Shown here: piece after piece, positions 15,406-57,887 of the stretch
How the letters are laid out: the number at the start of each line of letters is the position of its first letter
Numbering within the stretch: position 1 is the first letter of the stretch
DNA from: Aquipuribacter sp. SD81
GTDB taxonomy: Bacteria > Actinomycetota > Actinomycetes > Actinomycetales > JBBAYJ01
DNA: 64,000 nucleotides
Direction: 5' to 3'
Assembly: GCF_037153975.1 (NCBI RefSeq)
Contig: NZ_JBBAYJ010000006.1
Location: 62,001 to 126,000, forward strand
The notes under the pieces: model-generated
The model's database searches: none
Seen by the model: the letters and a program-made list of their open reading frames with translations, nothing else
What the model was told of the DNA's origin: nothing
Position numbers and translations under genes: made by a program

Positions 15406-17160
15406 TCAGCGGGGCAGCGCGCTGTGCGAGCGCTTGACCTCGTACATGAGGCGGTCCGCGCGGCGCACGAGGGACGCGGCGTCGTCACCGGCCCCCGACA
15501 GGGCGACCCCGGTGCTGACGGCGAGGCCGAGGTCCCGGCCGTCGACGAGGAGCGACGTCCGGAGCGCGCGCTCGAGGCGCCCCACAACCGCGGTCGCGTC
15601 CTCCGCGGTGGTGACCCCCGGGCAGCAGGCGACGAACTCGTCGCCGCCGAGCCGGCACACCACGTCGTCCGGGCGCAGGGTCGCGCGCAGCGTGTCCGCC
15701 ACCTGCTGCAGCACGCGGTCGCCGGTCTCGTGCCCGTAGCCGTCGTTGACGGCCTTGAAGCGGTCGAGGTCGAGGAAGAGCACCGCCACGCCCGGCACGC
15801 GCGGGTCCGCGAGCAGGCGGTCGACCTCCTCGGTGAGGTGGACCCGGTTCGACAGGCCGGTGAGCGGGTCGTGCAGCGCCAGCCGCGACAGCCGCTCCCG
15901 GGCGGCGCGCTGCTCGTGGACGTCGACGACCTGGGCCACCACCGACGTTCCGCCGTCGGAGTCCGGGAGCAGCGACAGGTGCACCTGCGTCCACAGCAGG
16001 CCCTGGCCCGGGACCCGGTGCCGCACCTCGACCTCTGCCGTCTCCAGACCGTCGTCGGCGAGCCGGTCCAGCACGGCCCGCAGCCGCAGCGAGTCGTCCG
16101 GGTGCAGGAGCTCGCGCCAGCGCACGGCCGAGGGGTCGCGGCGGAGCAGGCGCACGAGCGCCGGGTTGGGCCGCGTGAGCGACCACCCGCCGTCGGGTCC
16201 GCGGACCACGACGGCCTTGCCGATGACCGCGGCGTCGGTCGCCTGGCGCAGCTGCTCCAGGGACCGCGCCAGCTCCGCGGTGAGGGCGAGCGTGGTGGCG
16301 CGTCCGGTCGCGAGCGAGAGCCCGACCACGGTCACGACCACGACGAGGGACTGCACGAGCACCGCGCGCACCTGCACGTCGGCGACCGCGCCGAGGACGC
16401 CGTAGCCCGCGACCGCGGACGCGACGGCGAGAGAGGACCAGAGCAGGCCGAGCACCGCGGTCGTCGCGACGCCGACCCGGCTGCCCGCCCACACCGACAC
16501 CGCCACCGCGAGGAAGAGCAGCGGCAGGTCGACGGGCAGGACGAAGAGCAGCACGTACAGGCCGACGCCGACCGCCCCGATGCCGGCCGCCTCCGCCGCG
16601 GGGCGGGTACCGGGCCAGCGCGGCCGGCCCCGGGCGAGCAGCGCGCACGCGACGGCCGTGACGGCGAGCATCGTGCCGCCGTTGCGCACGACGAACAGCA
16701 GCAGCCCCTCGCCGAGGGGCTCGTCGAGCAGGGACGTGGCCGTCACCGCGGACGCGGTGCCGCTCACCAGGCCGGTGAGGGCGGAGGCGAGCAGGAGGCC
16801 GGTGAGGTCCCGCGGTGACCGCAGGGCCCGGTCGGGCACGAAGCGCACGACGAGGTGGTGACCCAGCGCGGCGTGGCCGCCGTTGACGAGGGCGAACACG
16901 GCGGCGGCGAGCAGCGGCAGGCCGGTGGCGGCGTTGACCGCGAACGAGGCGAGCACGAGGCCGGCGAGGGCGGCGCGTCGGGCGGCGGCGCGCCGCAGGA
17001 GCAGCAGCAGCGACACCCCGACCCCGGCGGCGGGCCAGGCGAGCGCGACCTGGGAGTCCTCGGGCCGCGCCGCGCGGCCGAGGTACGTGGCGGCCGCGTA
17101 CGCCAGGGCCACGGCGAGGGCGACACCCAGGCAGCGCGCGAGGCGCGCGGGTGGGGCCAC
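15406..17160 (-). CDS. Membrane diguanylate cyclase (MASE1-PAS-GGDEF)
   Basis: 584 aa. GTG start at 17160 follows GAGGAGG. Residues ~1-300 form a multi-helix MASE1-like sensor ([35 protein letters not shown] and others). A PAS-like segment (~305-415) contains [19 protein letters not shown]. The GGDEF domain (~425-580) has [31 protein letters not shown] and the intact active site RLGGDEFV (~503-510). An RPDD sequence five residues before GGDEF is a classic RxxD inhibitory site, so feedback inhibition by c-di-GMP is expected. No EAL domain. A cyclase making c-di-GMP in response to an unknown signal; several other c-di-GMP-type proteins are encoded within 15 kb. Confidence 0.92.
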
Positions 17161-17336: not shown

Positions 17337-17915
17337 GTGCTCCTCTCCGACACCGACGTCGCCGCCGCGGTGGCGGCGGGCGAGATCGTGCTCGAGCCGT
17401 TCGAGGCGACGATGGTCCAGCCGAGCAGCGTCGACGTCCGCGTCGACAAGTGGTTCCGGCTGTTCGACAACCACCGCTACGGCCTCATCGACCCGGCCGT
17501 CGAGCAGCCCGACCTCACGCGGCTCGTCGAGGTCCCGGCCGGGGAGTCGTTCGTGCTGCACCCGGGCGAGTTCGTGCTGGGCTCGACCTACGAGCAGGTG
17601 ACGCTCGGGCCCGGGCTCGCCGCTCGGCTCGAGGGCAAGTCGAGCCTCGGCCGCCTCGGGCTCCTCACGCACTCCACGGCCGGGTTCATCGACCCCGGCT
17701 TCTCCGGGCACGTCACCCTCGAGCTGTCCAACATGGCGACGCTGCCGATCGCGCTGTGGCCGGGCATGAAGATCGGCCAGCTGTGCTTCTTCCGGCTGTC
17801 GAGCCCCGCGGCGCACCCGTACGGCTCCGGCGACGGGCGGCACAACCGATACCAGGGCCAGCGGGGGCCCACGGCCAGCCGGTCGTGGCAGAACTTCCAC
17901 CGCAGCGAGGTCTGA
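17337..17915 (+). CDS. dcd: dCTP deaminase (dUMP-forming type)
   Basis: 192 aa. Deaminates dCTP, and in the actinobacterial bifunctional form also removes pyrophosphate to give dUMP for thymidylate synthesis. The start at GTG 17337 gives the family N-terminus ([16 protein letters not shown]). Conserved segments: [68 protein letters not shown] (catalytic Glu region) and [15 protein letters not shown]. The C-terminal [15 protein letters not shown] is the lid that closes over nucleotide. The downstream gene begins 5 nt after the stop. Confidence 0.96.
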
Positions 17916-17920
17916 GCGCG

Positions 17921-18820
17921 GTGCCCGGGCTGCGCCGCCGCGCCGTCGCCGACCCCTACGAGCCGCTCCGGCGACGGCACCTGCTGCTCGTGCCGACGGT
18001 CGTGGGCGTCGACCAGGTCGACGCCCTCGTGCGCTGCTGGTACCCCCTCTCGGACCTCGTCGGGACCGGGACGGCGGACCTCGACGGCCGCGCCGCGCTG
18101 CACGGCCCGCACGAGCTCAGCACCGAGGCCGCGGTCTCCGCCGACGTGCCGACCCCCTGGTCGGTCGCCTACGACCTCGAGGTCGAGCGCGGCGCCCGGG
18201 AGCCGTCGCCGCCCGCGCGCCGTCCGGACGGGCTGCACCGGGCCTTCCCGGACGGGCTGCCCACGGGGGCGGAGCTCGCGGGGCTCGAGCTGCTGCTCGC
18301 GCTCGCCCGCCGCCTCGACGGCGCCGTGCGGCCGACGGGCCAGCACGAGGCGCTCGTGCCGGACCACGCGACGGCCCTGGAGACCCGGGTCGTCTCGCCC
18401 ACGTGGGTGCGCCCGGCCGACGTCGCGGCCGTGTGCGCGCAGGAGGGCGAGGGGGTCACGGTCGCGGTCGGCGGGGACGCCTCGCCCGCGGCGCTGGAGC
18501 AGCCGGACGGCACGCCCTTCGTCGTGCACCTGCCGGTCGGCCCGGCCGGGGCCGTCGTCGTGGAGGGGCAGGTCGCGCTGCGTCCCGAGCCCGCCGTCGC
18601 CGGCGAGTCGTTCGGCGCGGGACCCATGGCGGTCTACGACGTGCGCTGGGTGGCGCCCGAGGAGGAGTGGCACCTCGCCGAGCACCTGGAGGGCGTCGCC
18701 CTCGCGTGCCGCGAGCGGGTGCGCGGACCGATCGCGGCGGTCACCCGCACCCTCGCGGAGCTGGGCGGCGGCGTGGTGGTCGACGCCGACGGGTTCCTCG
18801 TCGACCGCTACCAGGTCTGA
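17921..18820 (+). CDS. Hypothetical protein downstream of dcd
   Basis: 299 aa from GTG 17921, 5 nt after the dcd stop and therefore probably cotranscribed. Not recognised. Soluble, no signal peptide or membrane helix. It begins with a basic patch (LRRRAVADPYEPLRRRH) followed by LLLVPTVVGVDQVDALVRCWYPL, and has a central LAGLELLLALARRLDGAVRP segment and a C-terminal part with YDVRWVAPEEEWHLAEHLEGVALACRER. Codon use matches neighbours. The start is chosen for adjacency and because the basic N-terminus precedes the first beta strand. A nucleotide-metabolism role could be guessed only from position. Confidence 0.6.
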   Translation: MPGLRRRAVADPYEPLRRRHLLLVPTVVGVDQVDALVRCWYPLSDLVGTGTADLDGRAALHGPHELSTEAAVSADVPTPWSVAYDLEVERGAREPSPPARRPDGLHRAFPDGLPTGAELAGLELLLALARRLDGAVRPTGQHEALVPDHATALETRVVSPTWVRPADVAAVCAQEGEGVTVAVGGDASPAALEQPDGTPFVVHLPVGPAGAVVVEGQVALRPEPAVAGESFGAGPMAVYDVRWVAPEEEWHLAEHLEGVALACRERVRGPIAAVTRTLAELGGGVVVDADGFLVDRYQV

Positions 18821-18885: not shown

Positions 18886-19494
18886 ATGTCGTCGGAGCCC
18901 GCCGTGGGTCCGGGCGTCGCCTCCCAGGCCATCGTCGACGCCACGGGCACCCCGGTGGGCGTCGAGCTGCTGTACCGCGAGCCGCCCTCCGACGTGGCGC
19001 CGGTGCTCACCTCCGAGGCCGACCACGAGCAGGCGACCGGCACCGTCGTCGACCTGCTGCACCGGGAGATGGACGTCGACGACCCGGGGCTGCTGTTCCT
19101 CAACACCCCGCGCGCCTACCTCGTCGGCGCCCACGCGCTGCCCGCCGCCAACGGGCGCATCGTCGTGGAGGTGCTCGAGGGCGTCACCGCGGACGACGAG
19201 GTGGTCGCGGGCGTGCGCGACCTCCTCGCGCGCGGGTACCGCATCGCCCTCGACGACTGGGCGGGTCCGGGGGACCGGGACGCGCTGCTGCCGCTCGCGG
19301 ACTACGTCAAGGTCGACCTAGAGGCGGTGACGCGGGCCGGCCTCGCCGCCGTCGTCGCGCAGGCGCGGGAGGTCTGCCCGGACGTCGTCGTGGTCGTCGA
19401 GCGGATCGAGACCCTCGACGACCTGCAGGAGGCCCTCGCCGCGGGTGCGGACCTCTTCCAGGGCTACCTGCTCGCCGCGCCCGACCTCGTCTGA
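18886..19494 (+). CDS. Stand-alone EAL-like domain protein (paralogue of the EAL-HDOD protein)
   Basis: 202 aa. Its whole length aligns with the EAL part of the EAL-HDOD protein encoded at 29725: GVELLYRE (EAL motif variant), LFLNTPRAYLVG, IVVEVLEGV, YRIALDDWAG (the DDFG position reads DDWA), [35 protein letters not shown]. It ends where the HDOD domain would begin. Most metal and base residues of a c-di-GMP phosphodiesterase appear retained in altered form, so it may be a weak enzyme or a c-di-GMP-binding effector; activity cannot be decided here. Probably monocistronic, upstream of a secreted protease gene. Confidence 0.78.
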   Translation: MSSEPAVGPGVASQAIVDATGTPVGVELLYREPPSDVAPVLTSEADHEQATGTVVDLLHREMDVDDPGLLFLNTPRAYLVGAHALPAANGRIVVEVLEGVTADDEVVAGVRDLLARGYRIALDDWAGPGDRDALLPLADYVKVDLEAVTRAGLAAVVAQAREVCPDVVVVVERIETLDDLQEALAAGADLFQGYLLAAPDLV

Positions 19495-19665: not shown

Positions 19666-21318
19666 ATGGGTCGATTCCATGGCCGGCTCGTCGCCGCGAC
19701 CCTGACGACGTGCGTCGTCGCGGGCGCGGTGACGGGCGCGGTGACCACGCCCGCGACGGCGGCGACGACACCGCCTCCGCCTCCTGGGACGGAGTGGGGC
19801 GACGCCAAGGCCGACAGGTCGTCGATCGACCAGTGGACCGGCGACAACGACGCGAAGAAGGACCCCGGCAGCCTCTACACGATCACCGACGCCATCGGCG
19901 CGCGGAAGGTGTGGGACCGGACCGACGCCTCGGGGCACGCCGTCACGGGCAGGGGCGTGACCGTCGCCGTCGTGGACTCGGGGGTGTCCGCCGTCCGCGG
20001 TCTCGACGCCCCCGGCAAGGTCGTGCAGGGGCCCGACCTGTCGTTCGAGGCGAACGCCGAGCCCGCGGTGACCGACGCGGACACGTACGGCCACGGCACC
20101 CACATGGCGGGGATCATTGCGGCGAGGGACGGCGTGAAGGTCGACCCGAGGACGGGCGAGCCGAAGCCCGACAAGCCCTACCAGCAGCTCGGCGTCGCCC
20201 CCGACGCGCAGCTCCTCGCGCTCAAGCTCGCGAGCACCGACGGCAGCACCGACGTCAGCCAGGTCATCGCGGCCCTGGACTGGGTCGTGCAGCACCAGGA
20301 CGACGCCGGCATGGACGTGCGGGTGGTCAACCTGTCCTTCGGGACGACCGCGCTGCAGGCCGCGGACGTCGACCCCCTGGCGGCGGCCGCGCAGAACGCC
20401 TGGCGCGCGGGTCTGGTCGTCGTGGTGTCGGCGGGCAACGACGGGGAGCGCGACGGGCGGCTCACGAACCCGGCCATCGACCCCTACGTCATCGCCGTCG
20501 GGTCCAGCGACCCCAACGGCAAGGTGGACGGCTGGCAGAAGAAGCCGCGCGTCGCCGACTTCTCCTCGCGCGGCAGCGCCGAGCGCCCCGTCGACCTGCT
20601 CGCACCCGGCCGCTCGGTCGCGTCGCTGCGGGACCCCGGCTCCTTCGTCGACACCGAGCACCCCGAGGGCCGGGTCTCCGGCGACGACACCGGCCGGCTG
20701 TTCCGCGGCAGCGGCACCTCGCAGGCGGCGGCCGTGGTGAGCGGTGCGGCCGCGCTGCTGCTGCAGGCGCACCCGGACCTGACCCCCGACGAGGTCAAGG
20801 CCGTGCTGCTGGCCACGGCCTCCGAGGTCAAGCACGCCGACCGCCGGGCGGCCGGTGCCGGGCAGGTCGACGTCGAGGCCGCCCTCGAGCTGCTCGACGA
20901 GGCGGGCCGGGGCAGGCCCGAGGCGGTGGCCGTCCTGCGCGCGGCGCCCCAGACCCACGCGCAGGCGACGGCGACGGGCTCCCTGCAGCTCGCGCGGGGC
21001 GGGTCGGTGCTCGTGCACCAGGCCTCGGGCATCGCCCTCGAGGGCGAGATGGACGTGAACGGGCAGCCGTGGGACGGGCCGTCCTGGTTCGCGCAGGCAC
21101 AGGCGGGCACGACCTGGAAGCAGGGCACGTGGACCGACGACGGGTGGTCCCGTGCACGCTGGCTGGGTGACGGCTGGGCCCGGGCGCGGTGGCTCGACGA
21201 CGGCTGGTCCCGCGCGCGCTGGCTCGACGACGGCTGGTCCCGCGCGCGCTGGCTGGACGGCGGGTGGTCACGGGCCCGCTGGCTCGGTGGCACGTGGACA
21301 GGGGGCGGCTGGTCCTGA
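19666..21318 (+). CDS. Secreted S8 subtilisin-like protease with Trp/Arg repeat tail
   Basis: 550 aa. ATG follows GAGGACCCACGG. Signal peptide ~1-33 (ends ATAATT), then a Pro-rich segment and a short pro-region. The S8 peptidase domain has its triad at D104 (VAVVDSGV), H143 (YGHGTHMAG) and S352 (GSGTSQAAA), with the oxyanion Asn in SAGNDG. After the catalytic domain (~to 400) and a linker, the C-terminus (~485-550) is a tandem decapeptide repeat with five copies of RARWL in the pattern DGWSRARWLD. Two 30-nt units (21191-21220 and 21221-21250) are identical in DNA. The tail is likely a surface or polysaccharide-binding or secretion segment; that is inference. The gene ends ahead of a hairpin at 21352. 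Confidence 0.9.
   Translation: MGRFHGRLVAATLTTCVVAGAVTGAVTTPATAATTPPPPPGTEWGDAKADRSSIDQWTGDNDAKKDPGSLYTITDAIGARKVWDRTDASGHAVTGRGVTVAVVDSGVSAVRGLDAPGKVVQGPDLSFEANAEPAVTDADTYGHGTHMAGIIAARDGVKVDPRTGEPKPDKPYQQLGVAPDAQLLALKLASTDGSTDVSQVIAALDWVVQHQDDAGMDVRVVNLSFGTTALQAADVDPLAAAAQNAWRAGLVVVVSAGNDGERDGRLTNPAIDPYVIAVGSSDPNGKVDGWQKKPRVADFSSRGSAERPVDLLAPGRSVASLRDPGSFVDTEHPEGRVSGDDTGRLFRGSGTSQAAAVVSGAAALLLQAHPDLTPDEVKAVLLATASEVKHADRRAAGAGQVDVEAALELLDEAGRGRPEAVAVLRAAPQTHAQATATGSLQLARGGSVLVHQASGIALEGEMDVNGQPWDGPSWFAQAQAGTTWKQGTWTDDGWSRARWLGDGWARARWLDDGWSRARWLDDGWSRARWLDGGWSRARWLGGTWTGGGWS
21136..21290 (+). repeat. 30-nt tandem repeats encoding the DGWSRARWLD tail
   Basis: Five imperfect 30-nt units in frame within the subtilase gene; the units at 21191-21220 and 21221-21250 are identical. 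They encode Trp- and Arg-rich decapeptides at the C-terminus. Confidence 0.85.
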
Positions 21319-21418: not shown

Positions 21419-24010
21419 ATGCACCCGCTGGCACGCGCACTGGCGCGGGTCGTCGTCGCCGCACGCACCCCGGCGGCGGCCACGGCCGCGCTGTCGGCAG
21501 GGCTCCTCTGCCTCGGGTGCTGGCTGCTGGTCGTCCTGCCCGTCGGCGACAGCACGCTCCTGCCCGGACCTGCCGGCGCCGCGCTGCCGGTGGCGCTGCT
21601 GGCGATGCTCGCCGTCCTGCTGCTCAGCGAGCTCGGGCAGGCGGCTGTCGAGCTCCGTCAGCAGTCCTACGGCTTCTCCCTCACCGGCTCCGCCCTGCTC
21701 GTCGGGATGCTGTTCCTGCCCCCGCACTGGGTCGTCGCCCTGCGGGTCGCGTCGGCCGTCGTCGCCTTCGCCCTCCAGCGCAGCTCGGCCCTCAAGGCCT
21801 CGTACAACGCCGCGGCCTACCTGCTCGACGCGGTGCTCGTCGCCGTCCTGCTGCACGGCCTCCTGGAGCCGGCCCGGTCGCTGACGGTCCGCGCCGCGAC
21901 CGTCACCTACCTGTCGCTGGCCGTCGTCGACGTCCTCATGACGGCCCTCGTCCTCCTCGTCATCCGCATCAACGTCGGGCCGCTGGAGTGGTCCGACCTC
22001 ACCGAGGCCTTCGTCCCCGGGGCCGTCGCCGTGGCCGTCGCGAGCGCCCTCGGCCTCGTCTGCGTCGTCCTGCTCCTGGCCGGCCCCGTCGGGTGGGTGC
22101 TGCTGGTGCTGCTGGCGGCCGGGAGCGCGGCCGCGTACCGCCTGTACCTCACGCTGCGGCGTCGCCACGCGGACCTGCAGCTCGTGCAGGGCTTCATCGA
22201 CGCGAGCGTCGGTGGGGGCGAGGCGCTGGCCGGTGACCTGCTCGAGCGGGTCCGCTCGCTGCTGCGCGCGGGGACCGCCCAGCTCGTGTGGCGCGGCGGC
22301 GCGGGGGAGGTGCGGCTGCACGCCGAGGACGGCACCGCGGTCGGGGCCGCGACCGGCACCGGCACCCGTCCGGTCGTGGTCCCCCCGGAGCGCACGGACG
22401 GTCTCGTCCACGCCGGCCTCCCGGACGGGCCGCAGGCACGCTGGCTGACCGAGGCCGGTCACCGCGACGCCCTCGTCGTCGACCTCGGCGCCATGGGTGG
22501 CGACGGGGTCCTCGTCCTCGCCGACCGGCTCGGCGGGGAGGTGAGCCGGTTCGGGCAGGAGGACCTGAGCCTCGCGCGGGCCCTGGCTGGCCACCTGGTC
22601 GTGGCGCTGCAGAACACCGAGCTCGTCGACCGGCTGCGGTGGGACGCGACCCACGACGCGCTCACGGGCCTGCCCAACCGGCGCTCGCTCGCGGGTGCGC
22701 TCGAGCTGCAGCTCGGTGGGCCGCCCGGGGCGGTCCGGCGGCCCGTCGTGCTCACGGTCGGTGTCGACCGGTTCGACGAGGTGCACGACGTGCTCGGCCA
22801 GCAGACCGCCGACGCCGTGGTGGTGGAGCTGGCCCGGCGGGTCCGCGCCCTGCCCCTGCCGGGGGCGAGCGTCGCGCGCTCGGGCCCGAGCGAGCTCGCC
22901 GTCCTGCTGCAGGCGCCGTCGCAGCCGCCCGTCGAGCTCGCCGAGGTCCTCGCGCAGGTCAGCCACGACCCGGTCCCGGTAGGTGAGGTCCTGCTCAGCG
23001 TCGGTGTGAGCGTCGGGGCGGTGGAGGTCGCGGACGACGGCGCCGGCGCGGAGGAGGTGCTGCGGCGCGCGGACACCGCGCTGTTCGCCGCCCGTGCGAC
23101 CGGCAGCCGGTTCGTGCTCCACTCCCGCTCGCTGGACAGCGGGCGGGTCGAGCGCCTCGCGCTGCTGGGCGACCTGCACCGCGCCCTGGACGAGGGGGCG
23201 CTGACGGTGCACTACCAGCCGAAGCTCCACCTCGGGACCGGGACGGTGACGGGGGTCGAGGCGCTGGTGCGGTGGGAGCACCCGGTGCTGGGCGCCGTCG
23301 GGCCGGCCGTCTTCGTCCCGCTGGCGGAGTCCGCGGGACTGGTCGACCGACTCACCGACCACGTCCTCGCGACCGCGGTCGCCCAGGCACGGCGCTGGGC
23401 GGACGACGGCCTGCCGCTGAGCGTCGCGGTCAACCTGTCCGCGCGGTGCCTCGACGACGACACGCTCCCGCAGCGGGTCGCCGGGGCGCTGGCCGGTGCG
23501 GGGCTCGACCCGGCACGGCTCGTGCTGGAGGTGACCGAGACGAGCCTCATGGGCGACCCGGCGCGGACGCTGCCCGTGCTCCGCGCCGTCGCGGCCCTCG
23601 GCGTGCAGCTGTCCCTCGACGACTTCGGCACCGGCTACTCCAGCCTCGCCTACCTCCAGCGCCTCCCGGTCCACGAGCTCAAGGTCGACCGGAGCTTCGT
23701 GCAGGCGCTCGAGCAGGAGGAGGCCGGGACCGCGACCGCCCTCGTCCGGACCGTCCTCGGCCTCGCGACGAGCCTGGGCCTGCGCGTCGTCGCGGAGGGG
23801 GTCGAGTCCGCGCGCGCCCTCGCCGCCCTGCGGGACCTCGGCTGCCACCTCGTGCAGGGCTACCTCGTCTCCCGACCGGTCCCTCCGGACGCGGTGCCGG
23901 ACGTGGTGCGCGCGGTCGCGGCCGACCCCGCGTTCGCGGGCGGTCAGAGGGGCGGTGCTCTGCCGGCGCCGCGGGCGCCGTCCGCGGGCGCCGTGGTGGC
24001 GGCCGGGTAG
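21419..24010 (+). CDS. Membrane c-di-GMP phosphodiesterase (degenerate GGDEF-EAL)
   Basis: 863 aa from ATG 21419 (GAGGAG just upstream). Residues ~1-240 contain 6-7 hydrophobic helices including ALPVALLAMLAVLLLSEL and LLLAGPVGWVLLVLLAAG. A GAF-like or unassigned segment (~250-400) follows. The GGDEF domain (~405-570) keeps WDATHDALTGLPNRRSL but its active site reads SGPSE in place of GGDEF, so cyclase activity is not expected. The EAL domain (~585-845) is intact: VEALVRWEHP (~613), VAVNLSARCLD, LEVTETSLM, LDDFGTGYSSLAYLQ, HELKVDRSFV, VVAEGVES and LVQGYLVSRP. Predicted to hydrolyse c-di-GMP, opposing the cyclase at 15406. Converges on the EtfD-like gene with only 9 nt between stops. Confidence 0.91.
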   Translation: MHPLARALARVVVAARTPAAATAALSAGLLCLGCWLLVVLPVGDSTLLPGPAGAALPVALLAMLAVLLLSELGQAAVELRQQSYGFSLTGSALLVGMLFLPPHWVVALRVASAVVAFALQRSSALKASYNAAAYLLDAVLVAVLLHGLLEPARSLTVRAATVTYLSLAVVDVLMTALVLLVIRINVGPLEWSDLTEAFVPGAVAVAVASALGLVCVVLLLAGPVGWVLLVLLAAGSAAAYRLYLTLRRRHADLQLVQGFIDASVGGGEALAGDLLERVRSLLRAGTAQLVWRGGAGEVRLHAEDGTAVGAATGTGTRPVVVPPERTDGLVHAGLPDGPQARWLTEAGHRDALVVDLGAMGGDGVLVLADRLGGEVSRFGQEDLSLARALAGHLVVALQNTELVDRLRWDATHDALTGLPNRRSLAGALELQLGGPPGAVRRPVVLTVGVDRFDEVHDVLGQQTADAVVVELARRVRALPLPGASVARSGPSELAVLLQAPSQPPVELAEVLAQVSHDPVPVGEVLLSVGVSVGAVEVADDGAGAEEVLRRADTALFAARATGSRFVLHSRSLDSGRVERLALLGDLHRALDEGALTVHYQPKLHLGTGTVTGVEALVRWEHPVLGAVGPAVFVPLAESAGLVDRLTDHVLATAVAQARRWADDGLPLSVAVNLSARCLDDDTLPQRVAGALAGAGLDPARLVLEVTETSLMGDPARTLPVLRAVAALGVQLSLDDFGTGYSSLAYLQRLPVHELKVDRSFVQALEQEEAGTATALVRTVLGLATSLGLRVVAEGVESARALAALRDLGCHLVQGYLVSRPVPPDAVPDVVRAVAADPAFAGGQRGGALPAPRAPSAGAVVAAG

Positions 24011-27042: not shown

Positions 27043-27063
27043 GCTGAGTCGAGCGGGCTCAAG
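27043..27063. promoter_or_regulatory. HAIR-like HspR operator 1 upstream of dnaK
   Basis: GCTGAGT-N7-GCTCAAG. Compared with the HspR-associated inverted repeat CTTGAGT-N7-ACTCAAG it matches 5/7 and 6/7 bases with the correct spacing. Confidence 0.6.
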
Positions 27064-27078
27064 TTCGGACCCTTCCAA

Positions 27079-27099
27079 CTTGACACCGGAGCGCTCAAG
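27079..27099. promoter_or_regulatory. HAIR-like HspR operator 2 / dnaK promoter
   Basis: CTTGACA-N7-GCTCAAG, 5/7 and 6/7 matches to the HAIR half-sites. The TTGACA at 27080-27085 can serve as -35, with GAACCT at 27103-27108 as a weak -10 at 17-nt spacing, so HspR binding would block the dnaK promoter. Confidence 0.68.
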
Positions 27100-27153: not shown

Positions 27154-29031
27154 ATGGGCCGTGCAGTCGGCATCGACCTGGGCACCACCAACTCCGTCGT
27201 CGCCGTCCTCGACGGCGGCGAGCCGAGCGTCATCGCGAACGCCGAGGGCGGGCGCACCACGCCGTCCGTCGTCGCCTTCGCCAAGAACGGCGAGGTGCTC
27301 GTCGGCGAGATCGCCAAGCGCCAGGCCGTCACGAACGTCGAGCGCACCATCCGGTCCGTCAAGCGCCACATGGGCACCGACTGGGCGCAGACCGTCGACG
27401 ACAAGAAGTACACGCCGCAGGAGATCAGCGCGCGCGTGCTGCAGAAGCTCAAGCGCGACGCCGAGTCCTACCTCGGCGAGCCGGTGACCGACGCCGTCAT
27501 CACGGTGCCGGCGTACTTCAACGACGCCGAGCGCCAGGCCACCAAGGAGGCCGGCGAGGTCGCGGGCCTCACGGTGCTCCGCATCATCAACGAGCCCACC
27601 GCGGCCGCGCTCGCCTACGGCCTCGACAAGGGCAAGGAGGACGAGAACATCCTCGTCTTCGACCTGGGCGGCGGCACCTTCGACGTGTCCCTCCTCGAGG
27701 TCGGCAAGGACGAGGACGGCTTCTCGACGATCCAGGTCCGCGCCACCTCGGGCGACAACCGCCTCGGCGGCGACGACTGGGACTCCGCGATCGTCGACCA
27801 CCTGCTGAGCAAGGTGAAGATGTCGACCGGCGTGGACCTGTCCAAGGACAAGATCGCCATGCAGCGGCTGTCCGAGGCCGCCGAGCAGGCGAAGAAGGAG
27901 CTGTCGAGCTCCACGAGCACGAGCATCTCGCTGCAGTACCTGTCGATGACGGAGAACGGTCCCGTCCACCTCGACGAGCAGCTCACGCGCGCGCAGTTCG
28001 AGCAGATGACCTCCCACCTGCTCGACCGCACCAAGGCGCCGTTCCAGTCCGTCATCAAGGACGCGGGCGTGTCGGTGTCCGAGATCGCCCACGTCGTCCT
28101 CGTCGGCGGCTCGACCCGCATGCCCGCGGTCACCGAGCTCGTCAAGCAGCTCACCGGCGGCAAGGAGCCCAACAAGGGCGTCAACCCGGACGAGGTCGTC
28201 GCGCTCGGCGCCGCCCTGCAGGCCGGCGTGCTCAAGGGCGACCGCAAGGACGTCCTCCTCATCGACGTCACGCCCCTGTCGCTCGGCATCGAGACCAAGG
28301 GCGGGCTCATGACGAAGCTCATCGAGCGCAACACCGCGATCCCGACCAAGCGCAGCGAGGTCTTCACGACCGCGGACGACAACCAGCCGTCGGTGCTCAT
28401 CCAGGTGTTCCAGGGCGAGCGCGAGCTCGCGCAGCACAACAAGCCGCTCGGCACCTTCGAGCTCACCGGCATCGCGCCGGCCCCGCGCGGCGTGCCGCAG
28501 ATCGAGGTCACCTTCGACATCGACGCGAACGGCATCGTCCACGTCAACGCGAAGGACCGCGGCACGGGCAAGGAGCAGTCCATGACGATCTCCGGCGGCT
28601 CCGCGCTGCCGAAGGACGAGATCGACCGCATGGTGCGCGAGGCCGAGGAGCACGCGGAGGAGGACCGCACCCGCCGCGAGGAGGCCGAGACCCGCAACCA
28701 GGCCGAGGCGCTCGTCTTCCAGACCGAGAAGTTCCTCGCCGACAACTCCGACAAGCTGCCGGAGTCCGAGCGCGGCGAGGTCGACACCGCGCTCGCGGAC
28801 CTCAAGAAGGCGCTGGAGGACCCCGCGACGCCGGCCGACGACCTCAAGGCCAAGGTAGAGCGCGTCTCGACGACCAGCCAGGCGCTCGGTGCGGCCATGT
28901 ACGCCGCGAGCGGCGACGCGGCGGGTGCCGGCGCGGGTGCGGGCGACGCCGGTGACCCCGGTGCCGACGGCGCCGGCTCCGACGACGACGTGGTGGACGC
29001 CGAGGTCGTCGACGAGGACGAGCGCCGGTGA
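27154..29031 (+). CDS. dnaK: Chaperone DnaK (Hsp70)
   Basis: 625 aa ATP-dependent chaperone. ATG 27154 has AAGGAG 8 nt upstream. Nucleotide-binding domain ~1-360 with [66 protein letters not shown] and [12 protein letters not shown]. The substrate-binding domain begins around [14 protein letters not shown] and the helical lid follows; a Gly/Ala/Asp-rich tail ends [10 protein letters not shown]. First gene of the heat-shock operon, overlapping grpE by 4 nt (GTGA). Controlled by two HAIR-like sites, hence by HspR encoded downstream. Confidence 0.99.
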
Positions 29032-29687
29032 GCTCGCAGCCCGGCAGCGACGTCCCCGCCCCGGAGCCCGACGACCTCGCGGAGGCGGCGGACGCCGTCA
29101 CCGACCCGGCCGTCGACGGGCCCCGGGGGGAGGGGGCCCACCCCGGCACCGACGAGCTGGTGGCCTCGGCCGACGAGCAGGCGGCGCGCGCGGAGCAGGG
29201 GCTGCCCGACGGCGGGTCCGACGGCGCGGACCCCTCCGGCGCGGGCGCCGCGCCGGACCCCCTCGCCGACGCCCTCGCGCTCGCCGACTCGCGGCTGTCG
29301 GAGCTGCAGCGGGAGCGGGCGGACTTCGTCAACTACCGCCGGCGCGTGGAGCGGGACCGGCAGGTCGCGGGGCAGGAGGGCCGCGAGGCGGTCCTGCTCG
29401 CGCTGCTGCCCGTGCTCGACGACGTGGAGGGCGCCCGCCAGCACGGCGACCTCACCGGGCCCTTCGCCTCGGTGGCGGAGAAGCTCGCGGCCACCCTGCA
29501 GCGGCTCGGGCTGGAGTCCTTCGGCGAGCCCGGCGAGCCGTTCGACCCCGCGCAGCACGAGGCGCTGCTGCACGACTCGCAGACCGAGGTCGACGAGCCG
29601 ACGTGCACCCAGGTGCTCCAGAAGGGGTACCGAACGGGTGAACGGGTGCTCCGTCCGGCTCGGGTGGCGGTGGCGAGCCCCCGGTGA
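29028..29687 (+). CDS. grpE: Nucleotide exchange factor GrpE
   Basis: 219 aa. Releases ADP from DnaK. GTG at 29028 overlaps the dnaK stop. A long acidic, Gly/Ala-rich disordered N-terminus (~1-85) is followed by a coiled-coil ([24 protein letters not shown]) and the C-terminal beta domain ([20 protein letters not shown] ... [23 protein letters not shown]). The HEAL-type loop that contacts DnaK is present. The next gene is an EAL-HDOD protein rather than dnaJ, which is unusual. Confidence 0.96.
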
Positions 29688-29724
29688 GGTAAAGACACGC
29701 CCGGTTCTGCCGAACGAGGACCGT

Positions 29725-30954
29725 GTGACGGTGAGCACCAGCAGCCTGAGCACGGTCCTCGTCGGCCGTCAGGGCATCCACGAGATCGAGCGCGGCGGGG
29801 TCGGTGGCCTCGTCGGCTACGAGCTGCTGTTCCGGCAGCTCCCGATCGACTCCCTGCGCGACGAGCACGACCACGAGGCCGCGACCGCGCAGGTCCTCAG
29901 CGCCGTCTTCGGCGACTTCGGCGTCGACGACATCTCCGGCCGCCTGCCGCTCTTCGTCAACGCCCCCCGCGCCTACCTCGTGGGCGACCTGCCGCTGCCC
30001 GACGTGCCCGAGCGGGTGGTCGTCGAGGTGCTCGAGCACGTCGGCGTCGACGACGAGGTGCTCGCGGGCGTCGAGCGGCTGCGCGCCCAGGGCTACCGCA
30101 TCGCCGCCGACGACTGGGACGGCGACCCGGCCCGGGAGCCCCTGCTGCCGCTGTGCGACGTCGTGAAGATCGACATGTCGCTGCTCGCGCCCGGCCGGCT
30201 GCTGCAGGTCGTCGAGCGCGCCCGTGCCGTCGTGCCCACGGCGCAGGTCCTCGTCGAGCGTGTGGAGAGCGAGCTCGACCTCGAGCTCGCGCTCGCGGCC
30301 GGCGCCGACCTCGTCCAGGGGTTCCTCCTCGACCGCCCGCGGACCGTGAGCACCTCGACGCTCACGCCGTCGGAGGTCGCGTGCGTCCGGCTGCTGGCCG
30401 CGCTCGCCGCCGAGGCCGAGGCCGAGGAGGTCGAGCGGCTCGTCGCCTCCGACCCCGGTCTCGCGCTGCGCGTCCTGCGCACCGCGAGCAGCCCCGCAGG
30501 CGTGGGGCGGCCCGTCCGCTCGGTCCTGCAGGCCGTCGTGCTGCTCGGGCCGCGCATCCTCAGCGCCTGGGTCGTGCTCATGGTCATGGGCGGCTCGCGG
30601 CGGGTGCCGCGCGAGAACGTCGTCACGATGCTCGCGCGCGCCGGGGCCTGCGCGGCGCTCGAGCCGGGCCACCGCGACATCGCCTACACCGCCGGCCTGC
30701 TGTCGGCCGTCGCCGAGGTGCTCGGGGCCGACCCGGCCGACACCTTGCGCTCCAGCGGCGTCGACGCCGCCGTCGCCGAGGCCGTCCTGGAGGGCGCGGG
30801 CCAGGTGGGGTCCGCCCTGCGCGCCGTCGTCGCGCACGAGCGGGGCGCGCCGCAGGTCGTCATGTCGAACGGCTACACCCCGTTCGAGGTGTCGCTGGCC
30901 TACCTCGGCGCCCTCAAGGAGGCCGTCCGCACCTCGTCCGCCCTCGACGGCTGA
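29725..30954 (+). CDS. EAL-HDOD signalling protein between grpE and dnaJ
   Basis: 409 aa from GTG 29725 (GTG at 29731 is an alternative; GAGGA lies at 29716). N-terminal EAL domain (~10-205): [71 protein letters not shown]-terminal HDOD domain (~210-400) lacks metal-binding HD residues, as usual: [57 protein letters not shown]. Such EAL-HDOD (CdgJ-type) proteins act in c-di-GMP-linked or protein-interaction signalling. It starts 37 nt after grpE and ends 62 nt before dnaJ, in the same orientation, so readthrough from the heat-shock promoter is plausible. It is a paralogue of the EAL-only protein at 18886. Confidence 0.88.
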
Positions 30955-30976
30955 GCCGGCGGCCGCGCCCGCCAAA

Positions 30977-30997
30977 CTTGACACGACCCGACTCAGG
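30977..30997. promoter_or_regulatory. HAIR-like HspR operator / dnaJ promoter
   Basis: CTTGACA-N7-ACTCAGG, 5/7 and 6/7 matches to HAIR half-sites. TTGACA at 30978-30983 is a good -35, with CACCCT (31002-31007) as a weak -10. The predicted start site falls next to ATG 31017, which has no Shine-Dalgarno, so a leaderless dnaJ transcript is likely. Confidence 0.65.
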
Positions 30998-31016
30998 GTC
31001 GCACCCTGTCCGCACC

Positions 31017-32072
31017 ATGACTGGACAGGACTGGCTCGAGAAGGACTTCTACGCCGTCCTCGGCGTGCCCAAGGACGCGGACGCCGCCGCGGTGAAGAAG
31101 GCGTACCGCAGGCTCGCGCGCACGCACCACCCCGACGCCAACGCCGGCGACCCGGCCGCGGAGCGACGGTTCAAGGACGTCGGCGAGGCGTACTCGGTGC
31201 TGTCGGACCCCGAGAAGCGCCGGCAGTACGACGCTGTCCGCGCCATGCGCTCCGGAGCCCGCTTCACCGCGGGTGGTCCCGGCGGGGCAGGCGGGGCCGG
31301 CTTCGAGGACCTCTTCGGCGGCATGTTCGGCGGGGCGGGCGCCCCGCGCGGCGGCACCCGCTACGGCTCGCGCCGCTCGGGGCAGGGCGCGCAGGAGTTC
31401 GACGACCTGCTCGCGGACCTGCTCGGCCAGCAGGGCTTCGGCGGCACGCCCGCCGGTGGCCCGGGCGGCGGCTTCCCCGGTGCGACGCGCGGCCCGGTCC
31501 GCGGCGACGACCTCACCGCGACCGCGCGCGTCACGCTCGCGCAGGCCCTTCGGGGCACCGAGGTCGAGGTCGCGGTGGGCGACCCCGCCGCGGGCTCGCG
31601 GCAGGTGCGGGCGCGGCTGCCGCAGGGGGTGCGCGACGGGCAGAAGGTCCGGGTGCGCGGCAAGGGCGCACGCGGCTCCGGCGGTGCGGGCGACCTCATC
31701 GTGACCGTCCGGGTGGCCGCGGACGAGGCCTTCTCGTGGGACGGCGCGGCGCTGCGCGTCACCGTGCCGGTCACCTTCGCCGAGGCCGCGCTCGGCGACA
31801 CCGTGCACGTGCCGACGCTCGAGGGCGTCGCACGGCTCAAGGTCCCCGCCGGCACGCCGTCCGGGCGGACTTTCCGGCTCAAGGGCCGCGGCCCCGTGGT
31901 CAAGGGCACCGCGACCGACCTGCTCGCCACCGTGCAGGTCGTCGTGCCGCAGAAGCTGTCGGCCGAGGCGCGCGCCGCCGTCGAGACCCTCCGGGCCTCC
32001 GAGGCGGGCTCCGACCCGCGCGCCGACCTCCTCGCCGCGGCGGAGGCGAGCCGGCAGGCGGTGGCCTCGTGA
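31017..32072 (+). CDS. dnaJ: Co-chaperone DnaJ (Hsp40), zinc-finger-less type
   Basis: 351 aa. J domain ~8-75 with [20 protein letters not shown] and the catalytic HPD in [11 protein letters not shown], followed by a Gly/Phe-rich linker ([29 protein letters not shown]). The two C-terminal beta domains (~165-330) contain [19 protein letters not shown] and [21 protein letters not shown]. The four CxxCxGxG zinc repeats of classical DnaJ are absent, so it is the CbpA/DnaJ1-like type commonly linked to dnaK-grpE-hspR in actinobacteria. Preceded by its own HAIR site; overlaps hspR by 4 nt (GTGA). Confidence 0.95.
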
Positions 32073-32500
32073 GCGGGACCGCGCGCGTGCGTCGCGCGTA
32101 CGTCATCTCGGTGGCGGCCGAGCTCGCCGGCATGCACCCGCAGACCCTGCGGCAGTACGACCGGGAGGGCCTCGTCACGCCCACCCGCACCCGCGGCGGC
32201 GGACGGCGCTACACCGACGACGACGTCGAGCGCCTGCGCGAGGTGCAGCGGCTCTCGCAGCAGGAGGGCGTCAACCTCGCGGGCATCCGCCGCATCATGG
32301 CGCTGGAGGTGGAGGTCGAGCGGCTTCGCGACGAGCTCGCCGCGACCCGCGAGGAGCTGCGCCGCACCCGCGAGGCCGCCGACCGCGTCTTCGCCGCCGG
32401 CGCGGCCGGCGACATCGTCGCCATGCCGCCCGGCCGTCGTCCCCGTCGGCGCGAGGTGTCGACCGCGCTCGTCGTCTGGCGTCCCCAGCACCGCTCCTGA
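32069..32500 (+). CDS. hspR: Heat-shock repressor HspR (MerR family)
   Basis: 143 aa. MerR-type winged helix at the N-terminus ([29 protein letters not shown], then [14 protein letters not shown]), followed by a coiled coil ([24 protein letters not shown]) and a basic tail. In actinobacteria HspR binds HAIR sites with DnaK as co-repressor and releases them on heat shock. The GTG at 32069 overlaps the dnaJ stop. Sites in this window predict control of dnaK-grpE, dnaJ-hspR (autoregulation) and clpB. Confidence 0.96.
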
Positions 32501-32517
32501 CCCGCCGCGCGTACCGG

Positions 32518-32641
32518 GCGTAGGTCTGCGTTCGTGTCGACGTGCGCGGCGTAGGTCTGCGTTCGTGTCGACGTGCGCGGCGTGAGTCTGCGTTCGTGTC
32601 GACGTGCGCGGCGTAGGTCTGCGTTCGTGTCGACGTGCGCG
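32518..32641. repeat. Four-copy 31-bp tandem repeat
   Basis: Units start at 32518, 32549, 32580 and 32611, each running GCGTAGGTCTGCGTTCGTGT then CGACGTGCGCG. The third unit reads GCGTGAGTC in place of GCGTAGGTC; the others are identical. It lies between the convergent hspR and AGCS symporter genes and holds no convincing gene. Each unit carries GTCGAC. It could be a variable-number repeat, a protein-binding array or a transcription stop region; the function is unknown. Confidence 0.95.
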
Positions 32642-35198: not shown

Positions 35199-35219
35199 GT
35201 TGACCCGACTCGGCTCAAC
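35199..35219. promoter_or_regulatory. HAIR-like HspR operator 1 / clpB -35
   Basis: GTTGACC-N7-GCTCAAC, close to a perfect inverted repeat. TTGACC (35200-35205) and CATACT (35223-35228) are 17 nt apart and form a plausible clpB promoter overlapped by both HAIR sites. Confidence 0.65.
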
Positions 35220-35226
35220 CCACATA

Positions 35227-35247
35227 CTTGAGCCCGACCGGCTCAAT
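35227..35247. promoter_or_regulatory. HAIR HspR operator 2 upstream of clpB
   Basis: CTTGAGC-N7-GCTCAAT, the best HAIR match in the window (6/7 and 5/7 to CTTGAGT-N7-ACTCAAG), starting 18 nt before the clpB Shine-Dalgarno segment. Confidence 0.75.
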
Positions 35248-35265
35248 GTCTTGCAGGAGGACACG

Positions 35266-37872
35266 TTGGACGCGAAGCTCACCACCCGTAGCCAGGAGGC
35301 GCTGTCCTCCGCCGTCCACCGGGCGACCACCGGCGGCAACCCCTTCGTCGAGCCGGCGCACCTGCTGCAGGCCCTCCTCGCCGACAGCGCGGGCGTGCCC
35401 GGGGCGCTGCTCGCGGCCACGGGGGCGGACCCGGTCGCGCTGCGGCGCCGGGCCGAGGCGCTCGTGGACGCGCTGCCGAGCGCGACGGGCTCGTCGGTGA
35501 CCGAGCCGCGCGTGTCGCGCGGGGTGCACACGGTCCTCAACGCCGCCGGCGACGAGATGCGCGCGCTCGACGACACCTTCGTGTCCACCGAGCACCTGCT
35601 CCTCGGGGTGGCCGCCGACACCGGCGCCGCCGGTGAGGCGCTGCGCGCCGCGGGCGCCACCCGCGACGGCCTGCTCGCCGCGCTGCCGCAGGTGCGCGGC
35701 GCCGCCAAGGTCACGAGCCCCGACCCGGAGGGCACGTTCGACGCGCTGCAGAAGTACGGCCGCGACCTCACCGCCGACGCCCGCGAGGGCCGGCTGGACC
35801 CCGTCATCGGCCGCGACGCGGAGATCCGCCGGGTCGTGCAGGTGCTGAGCCGCCGCACGAAGAACAACCCCGTCCTCATCGGCGAGCCCGGCGTCGGCAA
35901 GACCGCCGTCGTCGAGGGGCTCGCGCAGCGCATCGTGGACGGCGACGTGCCGGAGTCGCTGCGCGACAAGCGCCTCGTCGCCCTCGACCTCGGCGCGATG
36001 GTCGCCGGCGCGAAGTACCGCGGCGAGTTCGAGGAGCGGCTCAAGGCCGTCCTCGCCGAGATCGAGGCCTCCGACGGCCAGGTCGTCACCTTCATCGACG
36101 AGCTCCACACCGTGGTCGGGGCAGGCGCCGCCGAGGGCGCGATGGACGCGGGCAACATGCTCAAGCCGCTGCTCGCCCGCGGCGCGCTGCGCCTCGTGGG
36201 CGCGACCACGCTCGACGAGTACCGCGAGCGCATCGAGAAGGACGCGGCGCTGGAGCGCCGGTTCCAGCAGGTCGTCGTCGGCGAGCCGTCGCCGGAGGAC
36301 ACCGTCGCGATCCTCCGCGGCCTCAAGGAGCGCTACGAGGCGCACCACCGCGTGCAGATCGAGGACTCCGCGCTCGTGGCGGCGGCCGTGCTGAGCCACC
36401 GCTACATCCCCGCTCGCAAGCTGCCGGACAAGGCGATCGACCTCGTCGACGAGGCGGCGAGCCGGCTGCGGATGGAGATGGACTCCAGCCCCGTGGAGAT
36501 CGACGAGCTGCGGCGGGCCGTCGACCGGCTGCGCATGGAGGAGCTCGCGCTCGCCCGTGAGGACGACCCCGCCTCGACCGAGCGGCTCGAGCGGCTGCGC
36601 GCCGACCTCGCCGACCGCTCGGAGCGGCTGGCCGGGCTGACCGCCCGCTGGGAGTCCGAGCGCGCCGGCCTCAACCGGGTCGGCGAGCTCACGCAGCGCA
36701 TCGAGGAGATGCGGGTGCAGGCCGAGCGCGCCCAGCGCGACGGCGACCTCGAGACGGCCTCGCGCCTGCTCTACGGCGAGATCCCGGCCGCGCACAAGGA
36801 GCTCGAGGCGGCCGGGTCGGCCGGTGCGGCCGCGGAGGCCGCCGACCGCATGGTCAACGAGAAGGTGACCGCCGAGGACGTGGCCGAGGTCGTGGCCGCG
36901 TGGACGGGCATCCCGACCGGGCGCCTGCTCGAGGGCGAGACCGAGAAGCTGCTGCACATGGAGGAGGTGCTCGGCCGCCGCCTCGTCGGCCAGGCCGAGG
37001 CCGTCCGGGCCGTCTCCGACGCCGTGCGCCGCTCGCGCGCCGGCATCTCCGACCCCGACCGGCCGACGGGTTCCTTCCTGTTCCTCGGCCCGACGGGCGT
37101 CGGCAAGACCGAGCTCGCCAAGGCGCTCGCGGACTTCCTCTTCGACGACGAGCGGGCGATGGTCCGCATCGACATGAGCGAGTACGGCGAGAAGCACTCC
37201 GTCGCCCGGCTCGTCGGTGCGCCCCCCGGGTACGTCGGCTACGAGTCCGGCGGCCAGCTCACCGAGGCCGTGCGCCGCCGGCCGTACTCCGTCGTCCTGC
37301 TCGACGAGGTCGAGAAGGCCCACCCCGAGGTCTTCGACGTCCTCCTGCAGGTGCTCGACGACGGCCGGCTGACGGACGGGCAGGGCCGGACGGTCGACTT
37401 CCGCAACGTCATCCTCGTGCTCACGAGCAACCTCGGGTCGACCGCCCTCATGGACACGTCGCTGTCGCGCGAGGACCGACGCGGCGCGGTCATGGACGCG
37501 GTGCGGATGGCGTTCAAGCCGGAGTTCGTCAACCGGCTCGACGAGGTCGTCGTCTTCGACCCGCTCAGCCTGGAGGAGCTCGGCCACGTCGTCGACCTGC
37601 ACGTCGACCTGCTCGCCGCCCGGCTCGCCGAGCGCCGGCTGCAGCTGGACGTGACGCCGGCCGCCCGGGAGTGGCTCGCGCTCACCGGCTACGACCCGGC
37701 CTACGGCGCCCGGCCGCTGCGCCGGCTCGTGCAGCGTGAGATCGGCGACCGGCTCGCGCGCGCCCTCCTCGCGGGCGAGGTGGTGGACGGCGACACCGTC
37801 GTGGTCGACACGACCGGCGACGACGGTGCCCCCGGGCTCAGCGTCCTGCCGGTCGCCCGCACGACGGTGTGA
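35266..37872 (+). CDS. clpB: Disaggregase ClpB (Hsp100)
   Basis: 868 aa. The start is TTG 35266, 5 nt after AGGAGG, giving the family N-terminus [20 protein letters not shown]; no ATG is available in frame. Clp_N domain ~1-145, AAA+ module 1 with [10 protein letters not shown] and [21 protein letters not shown], coiled-coil middle domain (~400-520, [21 protein letters not shown] region), then AAA+ module 2 with [40 protein letters not shown] and VLTSNLGS. It works with DnaK-DnaJ-GrpE to resolve aggregates and shares their HspR control through two HAIR sites. Ends at a hairpin terminator. Confidence 0.98.
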
Positions 37873-57108: not shown

Positions 57109-57887
57109 GCGGCCCGGTCACCCGGCACCTGCCCGCCGCCCGGCGCCTGCCCGTCACCGGCGGTCTCCTCGCCGCCTCGGGCGTGCTGTCGCTGGTCGGC
57201 TACGCGATCCTCGGCACGCAGTTCGGCTGGCCCGCGGTGCTCGACGAGCCCGGCACGAGCGCCCTCGACGCCTTCGTCGAGGCCGAGCAGTGGGTCCGCG
57301 CCGGCTTCTACGTGTTCCTCCTCTCGAGCCTCGTCCTCATCCCCGCCGCGGTCGGTGTCCAGGACGGCCTGACCCGCGGCCAGACGGCGGCCCGTGCCAT
57401 CACGGCCTTCGGCGTGCTCGGTGCCTTCGCCCAGATGCTCGGCTGGGTCCGCTGGCCCATCACCGTCCCGGGTCTGGCCGACCGGTGGACCGACCCCGCG
57501 GCCGGCGAGGCCGACCTGGCGGCCACCGCGGCGGTGTACGACCTCGTCAACGGCTACGCCGGCGGCGCCCTGGGCGAGCACCTGGGCTGGCTGCTGCAGG
57601 GCATCTGGGCCGTCGGGGTGTCGCTGTTCGTGCTGCGCGCCCGCGGCCTGCCGCGGTGGTTCGCCGTCGTCGGTGTCGCGCTGTCGGTCGCCTGGGCGGT
57701 CCTCGTCCCGGTCGCGACCGCGTTCGGTCAGCCCACGCTCGAGTTCTGGAGCCTCAACGTCTACACGGCCTGGTACCTGTGGCTGCTCGCGCTCGGGGTG
57801 CTGCTCGCGCTGCGCCGCGTCGGGCCACCGGCGGAGGCTCCTAGTACGACGCGCTCGGGTCGTAGGCCAGCCGGTACCCCCGCTTGA
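57105..57887 (+). CDS. Multi-spanning membrane protein (DUF4386-like)
   Basis: 260 aa with about six hydrophobic helices (LLAASGVLSLVGYAILG, VFLLSSLVLIPAAVGV, ITAFGVLGAFAQMLGWV, GWLLQGIWAVGVSLFVL, WFAVVGVALSVAWAVLVPV, WYLWLLALGVLLAL). The pattern resembles DUF4386 proteins of unknown function. GTG 57105 overlaps the epimerase stop by 4 nt. The C-terminal ~15 codons overlap the 3' end of the convergent nnaR gene by 47 nt. Confidence 0.75.
   Translation: MSGPVTRHLPAARRLPVTGGLLAASGVLSLVGYAILGTQFGWPAVLDEPGTSALDAFVEAEQWVRAGFYVFLLSSLVLIPAAVGVQDGLTRGQTAARAITAFGVLGAFAQMLGWVRWPITVPGLADRWTDPAAGEADLAATAAVYDLVNGYAGGALGEHLGWLLQGIWAVGVSLFVLRARGLPRWFAVVGVALSVAWAVLVPVATAFGQPTLEFWSLNVYTAWYLWLLALGVLLALRRVGPPAEAPSTTRSGRRPAGTPA

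Follow-up and report, generated by a model that had tools for sequence, protein, structure and literature searches.

The window analysed here (the whole stretch of DNA, 64,000 nt) comes from a genome of 3.86 Mb (G000) that is actinobacterial by gene content and named relatives and that contains 29 EAL matches. Its + strand carries, in this order, dnaK, grpE, a gene for an EAL-HDOD protein, dnaJ and hspR, and the coordinates of these genes and of the associated features are collected in Table 1. The original prediction had placed an EAL-HDOD gene between grpE and dnaJ, on one strand with them and 37 nt after grpE, and this is what we found: the gene is intact and its end lies 62 nt upstream of dnaJ-hspR. 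The missing zinc finger of DnaJ was considered as a novelty and rejected, since none of 42 DnaJs from such operons, partial sequences included, has the CxxCxGxG motif. Directly 3' of hspR there is a tandem repeat (32517-32641; 31-nt unit, 4.0 copies, 95% matches). Two further genes with domains of this signalling type, MASE1-GGDEF (15406-17112) and GGDEF-EAL (21419-24010), lie within 12 kb upstream of dnaK. At about 21120-21315 there is a subtilase (Pfam Peptidase_S8) whose C-terminus carries a repeat of the DDGWSRARWL type.

Table 1. Genes and predicted regulatory features in the window.
Feature	Position	Strand	Details
dcd (dCTP deaminase)	17337-17915		Pfam
EAL-only sister gene	18886-19494	+	202 aa, no HDOD; 52% identity; Pfam EAL 42.5 bits; tree
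Distal HAIR-like operator before dnaK	27043-27063		3/14 mismatches; 21.5 bits
Proximal HAIR-like operator before dnaK	27079-27099		15.6 bits; TTGACA in left arm
dnaK	27154-29031	+	Pfam HSP70, 793.7 bits
grpE	29028-29687	+	Pfam GrpE, 93.4 bits
Shine-Dalgarno-like AGGA before EAL-HDOD gene	29717-29720	+	Motif scan
EAL-HDOD gene, predicted c-di-GMP phosphodiesterase of YuxH/ZpdA type	29725-30954	+	GTG start, 409 aa; Pfam EAL and HDOD
HAIR-like operator before dnaJ	30977-30997		3/14 mismatches, 10.3 bits; overlaps TTGACA (30978-30983)
-10-like hexamer CACCCT	31002-31007	+	By eye; 18 nt after TTGACA, 9 nt before dnaJ ATG
dnaJ, type without zinc finger	31017-32072	+	Pfam DnaJ and DnaJ_C; no zinc-finger match
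hspR	32069-32500	+	MerR type; NCBIfam HspR NF047375, 136.6 bits (cut-off 105)
Two HAIR-like operators before clpB	35199-35247 (starts 35199, 35227)		19.6 and 23.2 bits (better strand); exact pattern matches
clpB	35251-37872		Named by sequence alone, without family search

The genus was represented by the three genomes compared (G000, G001 and G002). Among relatives outside it, 54 had an HspR match; the stretch upstream of hspR was taken from 40 of these (14 were dropped), and two operons were cut by contig ends (L072, L089), which left 38 complete operons from 15 families. In every one of them dnaJ is the next gene after grpE, 8-310 nt away, and the expectation that the two genes are normally contiguous in actinobacteria was thereby confirmed. 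Neither G000 nor its congener G001 has such a contiguous dnaK-grpE-dnaJ-hspR operon free of a foreign gene: in G001 the EAL-HDOD gene is inserted at the same place (84% identity), and a misassembly is thought unlikely because the junctions are shared by these two different species. At the corresponding position of G002 there is an assembly gap, where one contig stops inside grpE and another begins inside dnaJ, with no GrpE match there, and a full-length EAL-HDOD copy (61% identity) is located on another contig. On the gene orders compared, the insertion is a derived arrangement within one genus, seen in two of its three genomes, the third having the assembly gap there. The six-row alignment A2 supplied a search pattern, the 16-row alignment A1 having yielded no usable one. 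Homologues at E 1e-40 or better were present in 44 of the 248 genomes of the order. Among 37 order-level homologue loci (a set outside which the locus of G000 itself falls), only that of G001 had heat-shock genes within 1.5 kb, and no heat-shock gene was found in the flanks (up to 5 kb) of 80 named homologue loci, the best 80 of at least 533.

The neighbourhood of these homologues points to a probable source of the gene. In family f15, dcd is near the best-matching homologue locus in all 12 genomes that have a homologue, a count of one locus per genome, three of these genomes having further copies. The same linkage was observed at two of the 80 named loci (best 80 of at least 533), both from Kineococcus, and dcd was absent within 1.5 kb at the 25 remaining order-level loci (37 in all), so the link to dcd is a family trait and not a general one. 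In the window, an EAL-only sister of the inserted gene is located two genes downstream of dcd; it has the same position in G002 and is absent from G001. Directly after dcd (17921-18820), a 299-aa protein with no Pfam match is conserved in both congeners, G001 and G002. A tree built on the EAL portion placed all five copies of the genus in one clade (98/96), with the dcd-linked EAL-only pair (100/99) as sister to the full-length copies (98/90); the copies in the heat-shock operon grouped together (98/97), and deeper forks were weak. The simplest history that we infer from these sequences is a duplication within the lineage, followed by loss of HDOD from the copy that stayed and movement of the full-length copy. 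Comparison of G000 with G001 gave a dN/dS of 0.23 for the EAL-HDOD gene (0.26 for the EAL half and 0.20 for the HDOD half), next to 0.26 for dnaJ, 0.41 for grpE and 0.16 for hspR. The gene is maintained by purifying selection, and its decay was rejected on this ratio and on the lack of internal stops. The comparison of synteny that had been proposed as a check thus came out in favour of the original prediction, with the insertion conserved, and under selection, in a second species. Simple orthology of the full-length G002 copy is doubtful, given that its dS to the window gene is 0.97, while four other gene pairs from these genomes have values of 0.45-0.60. This copy may be a further paralogue, and no colinear block around it was found in the match lists of G000 or G001.

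Sites for HspR were scanned for with the HAIR consensus. On the + strand of the window, five sites with up to three mismatches were recovered, compared with 0.45 on average in 20 simulated sequences; two are before dnaK and one each before dnaJ and clpB, and the fifth, at 57738, is unexplained. Over both strands of the whole G000 genome, the exact pattern gave eight matches and a reversed control pattern three, and the matches lay before dnaK, dnaJ, clpB and an hsp20 gene (Pfam HSP20), plus one unexplained site. The corresponding numbers in G001 were nine and one, with matches before dnaK, dnaJ, clpB and the hsp20 counterpart. The unexplained exact match of G000 (C14:733, L222) lies some 90 nt upstream of an apparently mraZ-like gene; it may be due to chance and is not in the G001 list. 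A HAIR-like site was thus predicted in front of dnaJ, in agreement with the earlier claim that this gene has one of its own. Scored with a position matrix derived from the dnaK-upstream sites of 36 relatives (69 sites), it is the weakest of the predicted operators, and its score equals the 99th percentile of the best scores that 2000 random 200-nt pieces of the window reached. The site is identical in G000 and G001, where it falls inside a 29-nt identical non-coding run (30971-30999); the chance that a given stretch of this length stays unchanged is about 4e-6 to 3e-5, assuming 65-70% identity at unconstrained positions and independence between them. Within the coding parts of the operon, identical runs of at least 29 nt occur often (dnaK-hspR has 29 of them, two junction runs included), so it is only the non-coding setting that makes this one stand out. 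No site with up to four mismatches was found in the 200 nt before dnaJ in 36 of the 38 relatives. The remaining two, L087 with a 4-mismatch site and L097 (genome G056) with a strong one (25.1 bits), do not have the insertion, and a HAIR site before dnaJ is therefore not in itself unique to this genus. In L097, which belongs to another family, the site is 117 nt before dnaJ in a contiguous operon that has kept its Shine-Dalgarno sequence, and it is perhaps an independent dnaJ-proximal HspR operator. Upstream of the EAL-HDOD homologues, no site with up to three mismatches was found within 330 nt at 95 loci (80 named, best of at least 533, and 15 from relatives).

The start of dnaJ also looks rebuilt. 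In all 38 intact relatives dnaJ is preceded by a Shine-Dalgarno match of at least four bases, which both G000 and G001 lack; 26% of random 14-mers from the window carry such a match, and several other window genes are without one. The TTGACA in the left arm of the dnaJ HAIR site is followed at 18 nt by the hexamer CACCCT, and the last spacer, up to the ATG, is 10 nt in G001 instead of the 9 nt of the window. With this spacing, transcription would begin no more than a few bases away from the dnaJ ATG. More than 20% of actinobacterial genes are leaderless and carry a TA-like signal some 10 bp ahead of their start, according to the available part of one survey (PMC3160421). CACCCT is a poor signal of this kind and was not picked up by a sigma-70 consensus scan. 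The placement of TTGACA within a HAIR site is a design common to the dnaK upstream regions of all three congeners. What is new here, as far as can be read from the sequence, is a dnaJ that combines the missing Shine-Dalgarno sequence with a HAIR site overlapping TTGACA and a -10-like hexamer directly before the ATG. The HAIR site looks derived, together with the loss of the Shine-Dalgarno sequence, a point missed by the original prediction. The operon seems to be split into two units, dnaK-grpE-EAL-HDOD with two HAIR-like operators upstream and dnaJ-hspR with one, each of them predicted to be repressed by HspR.

No HAIR site was found directly before the EAL-HDOD gene, and its membership of the first unit would come from dnaK read-through. 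Simple scans of the 37-nt gap between grpE and this gene revealed no sigma-70-like site and no + strand terminator-like site; a 7-pair hairpin in the gap is terminator-like on the - strand only, with no T run on the + strand. Since the sigma-70 consensus scan found no promoter anywhere in the region in either species, that of dnaK included, it says little either way. With no promoter or + strand terminator recognised by these scans, and with two HAIR sites before dnaK, heat-shock read-through remains the simplest prediction for the gene, as originally proposed; as a general system it does not stand, because the insertion was seen in one genus only. The gene might instead be a tolerated insertion with a weak constitutive promoter of its own at the end of grpE, in which case the promoter before dnaJ would cure the polar effect on dnaJ-hspR and there would be no link between heat and c-di-GMP. 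The restriction to one genus and the full-length copy elsewhere in G002 favour this explanation, and the dnaJ promoter alone would restore normal control of dnaJ-hspR. Besides the hairpin, a 40-nt block identical in G000 and G001 (29708-29747), which covers the AGGA and the start codon of the EAL-HDOD gene, could hide a signal belonging to the gene. However, purifying selection has kept the gene between species that differ at about one third of synonymous sites, the spacer is short and free of promoter-like and + strand terminator-like sites in the scans, and read-through from the heat-shock promoter would reach the gene even if it had another one. We consider a tolerated insertion rather unlikely.

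The product has an N-terminal EAL domain followed by a C-terminal HDOD domain. Both Pfam matches were above the cut-off, with 36 bits for EAL (residues 94-205, covering just the second half of the model) and 41 bits for HDOD (residues 229-334). The AlphaFold2 model (mean pLDDT 89, pTM 0.71) has an EAL fold over approximately residues 7-210, the best hit in VIA-align being PaMucR (5m1t; Z 19.9, 2.6 A over 194 residues, 23% identity). The fold comparison listed EAL structures only, and for the HDOD half the evidence is a profile of 48 homologues, which matches solved HDOD chains across the second half of the protein. The family profile also aligns with a crystallised EAL protein of Vibrio cholerae through the DD, K, E and Q motifs. 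Ten residues (E33, R37, N79, E101, D129, D130, K148, E178, E181 and Q198), which we take to be those that bind metal and substrate in EAL enzymes, are invariant or at least 90% kept among the 48 homologues. Also present is the ELL motif, which is the active-site motif of ZpdA, an EAL-HDOD protein of V. cholerae; in the accessible part of its description, ZpdA lowers c-di-GMP and an ELL to AAA mutant does not, and the same domain order is given for CdgJ, VC1851 and enzymes from Geobacter and Bacillus (PMC12607878). By fold, motifs and analogy, the EAL-HDOD protein probably acts as a c-di-GMP phosphodiesterase whose activity the HDOD domain would tune. The Bacillus member is presumably YuxH/PdeH, and the family COG3434.

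Enzyme activity is the point on which a second alternative differs, namely that the protein is a non-enzyme adaptor, binding c-di-GMP or another protein, in which the EAL half senses c-di-GMP, or neither domain performs turnover, and HDOD relays the signal. HDOD domains are known chiefly as non-enzymatic signalling modules, the Pfam match to EAL is weak and partial, and the stretch after DD departs from the DFGTGYSS form usual in EAL domains. In addition, the available part of a study of B. velezensis LQ-3 reports that a pdeH mutant was unlike a loss of phosphodiesterase and that an in vivo block of the activity was suspected (PMC11357230). These points are countered by the retained EAL motif residues, by the alignment with the crystallised protein through all four motifs, and by ZpdA and its AAA mutant, where the same domain order and ELL go with a measured effect on c-di-GMP, and we judge an adaptor improbable. 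A direct coupling, in which the c-di-GMP-bound protein acts on DnaK or DnaJ or is itself a dedicated chaperone client reporting stress, is very hard to credit, since it is favoured only by the position in the operon and by the link of c-di-GMP, heat and DnaK-type proteins described, in the part of the source available, for the PilZ-DnaK chaperones CsdK1 and CsdK2 of Myxococcus (PMC10313047), whereas Pfam revealed no chaperone domain in the EAL-HDOD protein and no heat-shock gene was near homologues elsewhere (80 named loci, best of at least 533). Evidence for the second idea of the original prediction, a direct action of chaperone status on the protein, did not emerge from these comparisons.

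The best explanation, to which we give a probability of about 0.47, is that a YuxH/ZpdA-type phosphodiesterase gene was captured into the HspR regulon, giving two HspR units and a heat shock that lowers c-di-GMP. An EAL-HDOD copy, with its original place probably near dcd, would have been inserted between grpE and dnaJ in the ancestor of the two species and retained by selection. It would be transcribed with dnaK-grpE from the HspR-repressed dnaK promoter, and dnaJ-hspR would have acquired a promoter of its own, repressed by HspR and giving a transcript that is leaderless or almost so. At HAIR sites, HspR represses together with DnaK as its co-repressor, and heat shock releases the complex, as stated in the available part of PMC8223512. 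Heat or unfolded protein would accordingly draw DnaK off HspR and turn both units on; on this basis, heat shock is expected to raise the dnaK-grpE-EAL unit and to reduce c-di-GMP, and the phosphodiesterase would favour a motile or dispersed state under proteotoxic stress. On the other hand, the copy in G002 is located elsewhere, which means that linkage to heat shock is not needed for the gene to persist, and a genome with 29 EAL matches can easily buffer an additional phosphodiesterase. Also against capture are the low score of the operator at dnaJ, the HAIR site before dnaJ in G056 without an insertion, and the lack of heat-shock genes near the named homologue loci (0 of 80, best of at least 533).

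As for the output, an FlhA-like gene is beside the homologue at eight of the 80 named loci (best 80 of at least 533), seven from Dactylosporangium and one from Virgisporangium (L129, L132, L134, L135, L137, L139, L142 and L148), with Pfam FHIPEP in the three of the eight that were tested. This suggests a flagellar role. FlhA is present in G000 and G001 and was not found in G002, a pattern that fits a motility output in a set of three genomes too small for a conclusion. More tentatively than the capture itself, we propose that the HspR-DnaK thermostat sets the level of the second messenger as a switch for motility or dispersal, and that the leaderless dnaJ-hspR unit would spare the feedback loop from the added gene. 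If true, a c-di-GMP enzyme has been wired into the HspR chaperone feedback loop, and a textbook operon has taken in a signalling gene and split in two through the gain of a second operator and the loss of a ribosome-binding site. The arrangement suggests that heat stress and second-messenger signalling are wired together in a small actinobacterial group, and whether heat shock lowers c-di-GMP in actinobacteria becomes directly testable.

In the open-licence full-text literature, a scope that takes in few subscription journals, we found no paper that joins the EAL-HDOD family to a chaperone operon or to HspR, and none on an internal promoter of dnaK-grpE-dnaJ-hspR; novelty in print is probable. 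Among known systems, the phosphodiesterases ZpdA and CdgJ of V. cholerae share the N-terminal EAL and C-terminal HDOD of the window protein, and ZpdA also its ELL motif; in the available text, ZpdA is under the control of Zur and zinc, unlike the window gene with its chaperone-operon setting (PMC12607878). The CdbA/CdbS/CsdK1/CsdK2 system of Myxococcus xanthus likewise links heat stress, DnaK-type chaperones and c-di-GMP proteins, but it does so with PilZ and PilZ-DnaK proteins, and the part of its description available names neither an EAL-HDOD protein nor HspR (PMC10313047). A third related system is the actinobacterial HspR/HAIR operon dnaK-grpE-dnaJ-hspR, which, in the portion of the source at hand, has the same genes and HspR, with HAIR before dnaK, clpB and an hsp20 gene (PMC8223512). 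The window differs from this operon in the signalling gene that separates grpE from dnaJ, in a second HAIR promoter-like element and in a leaderless-type start of dnaJ-hspR.
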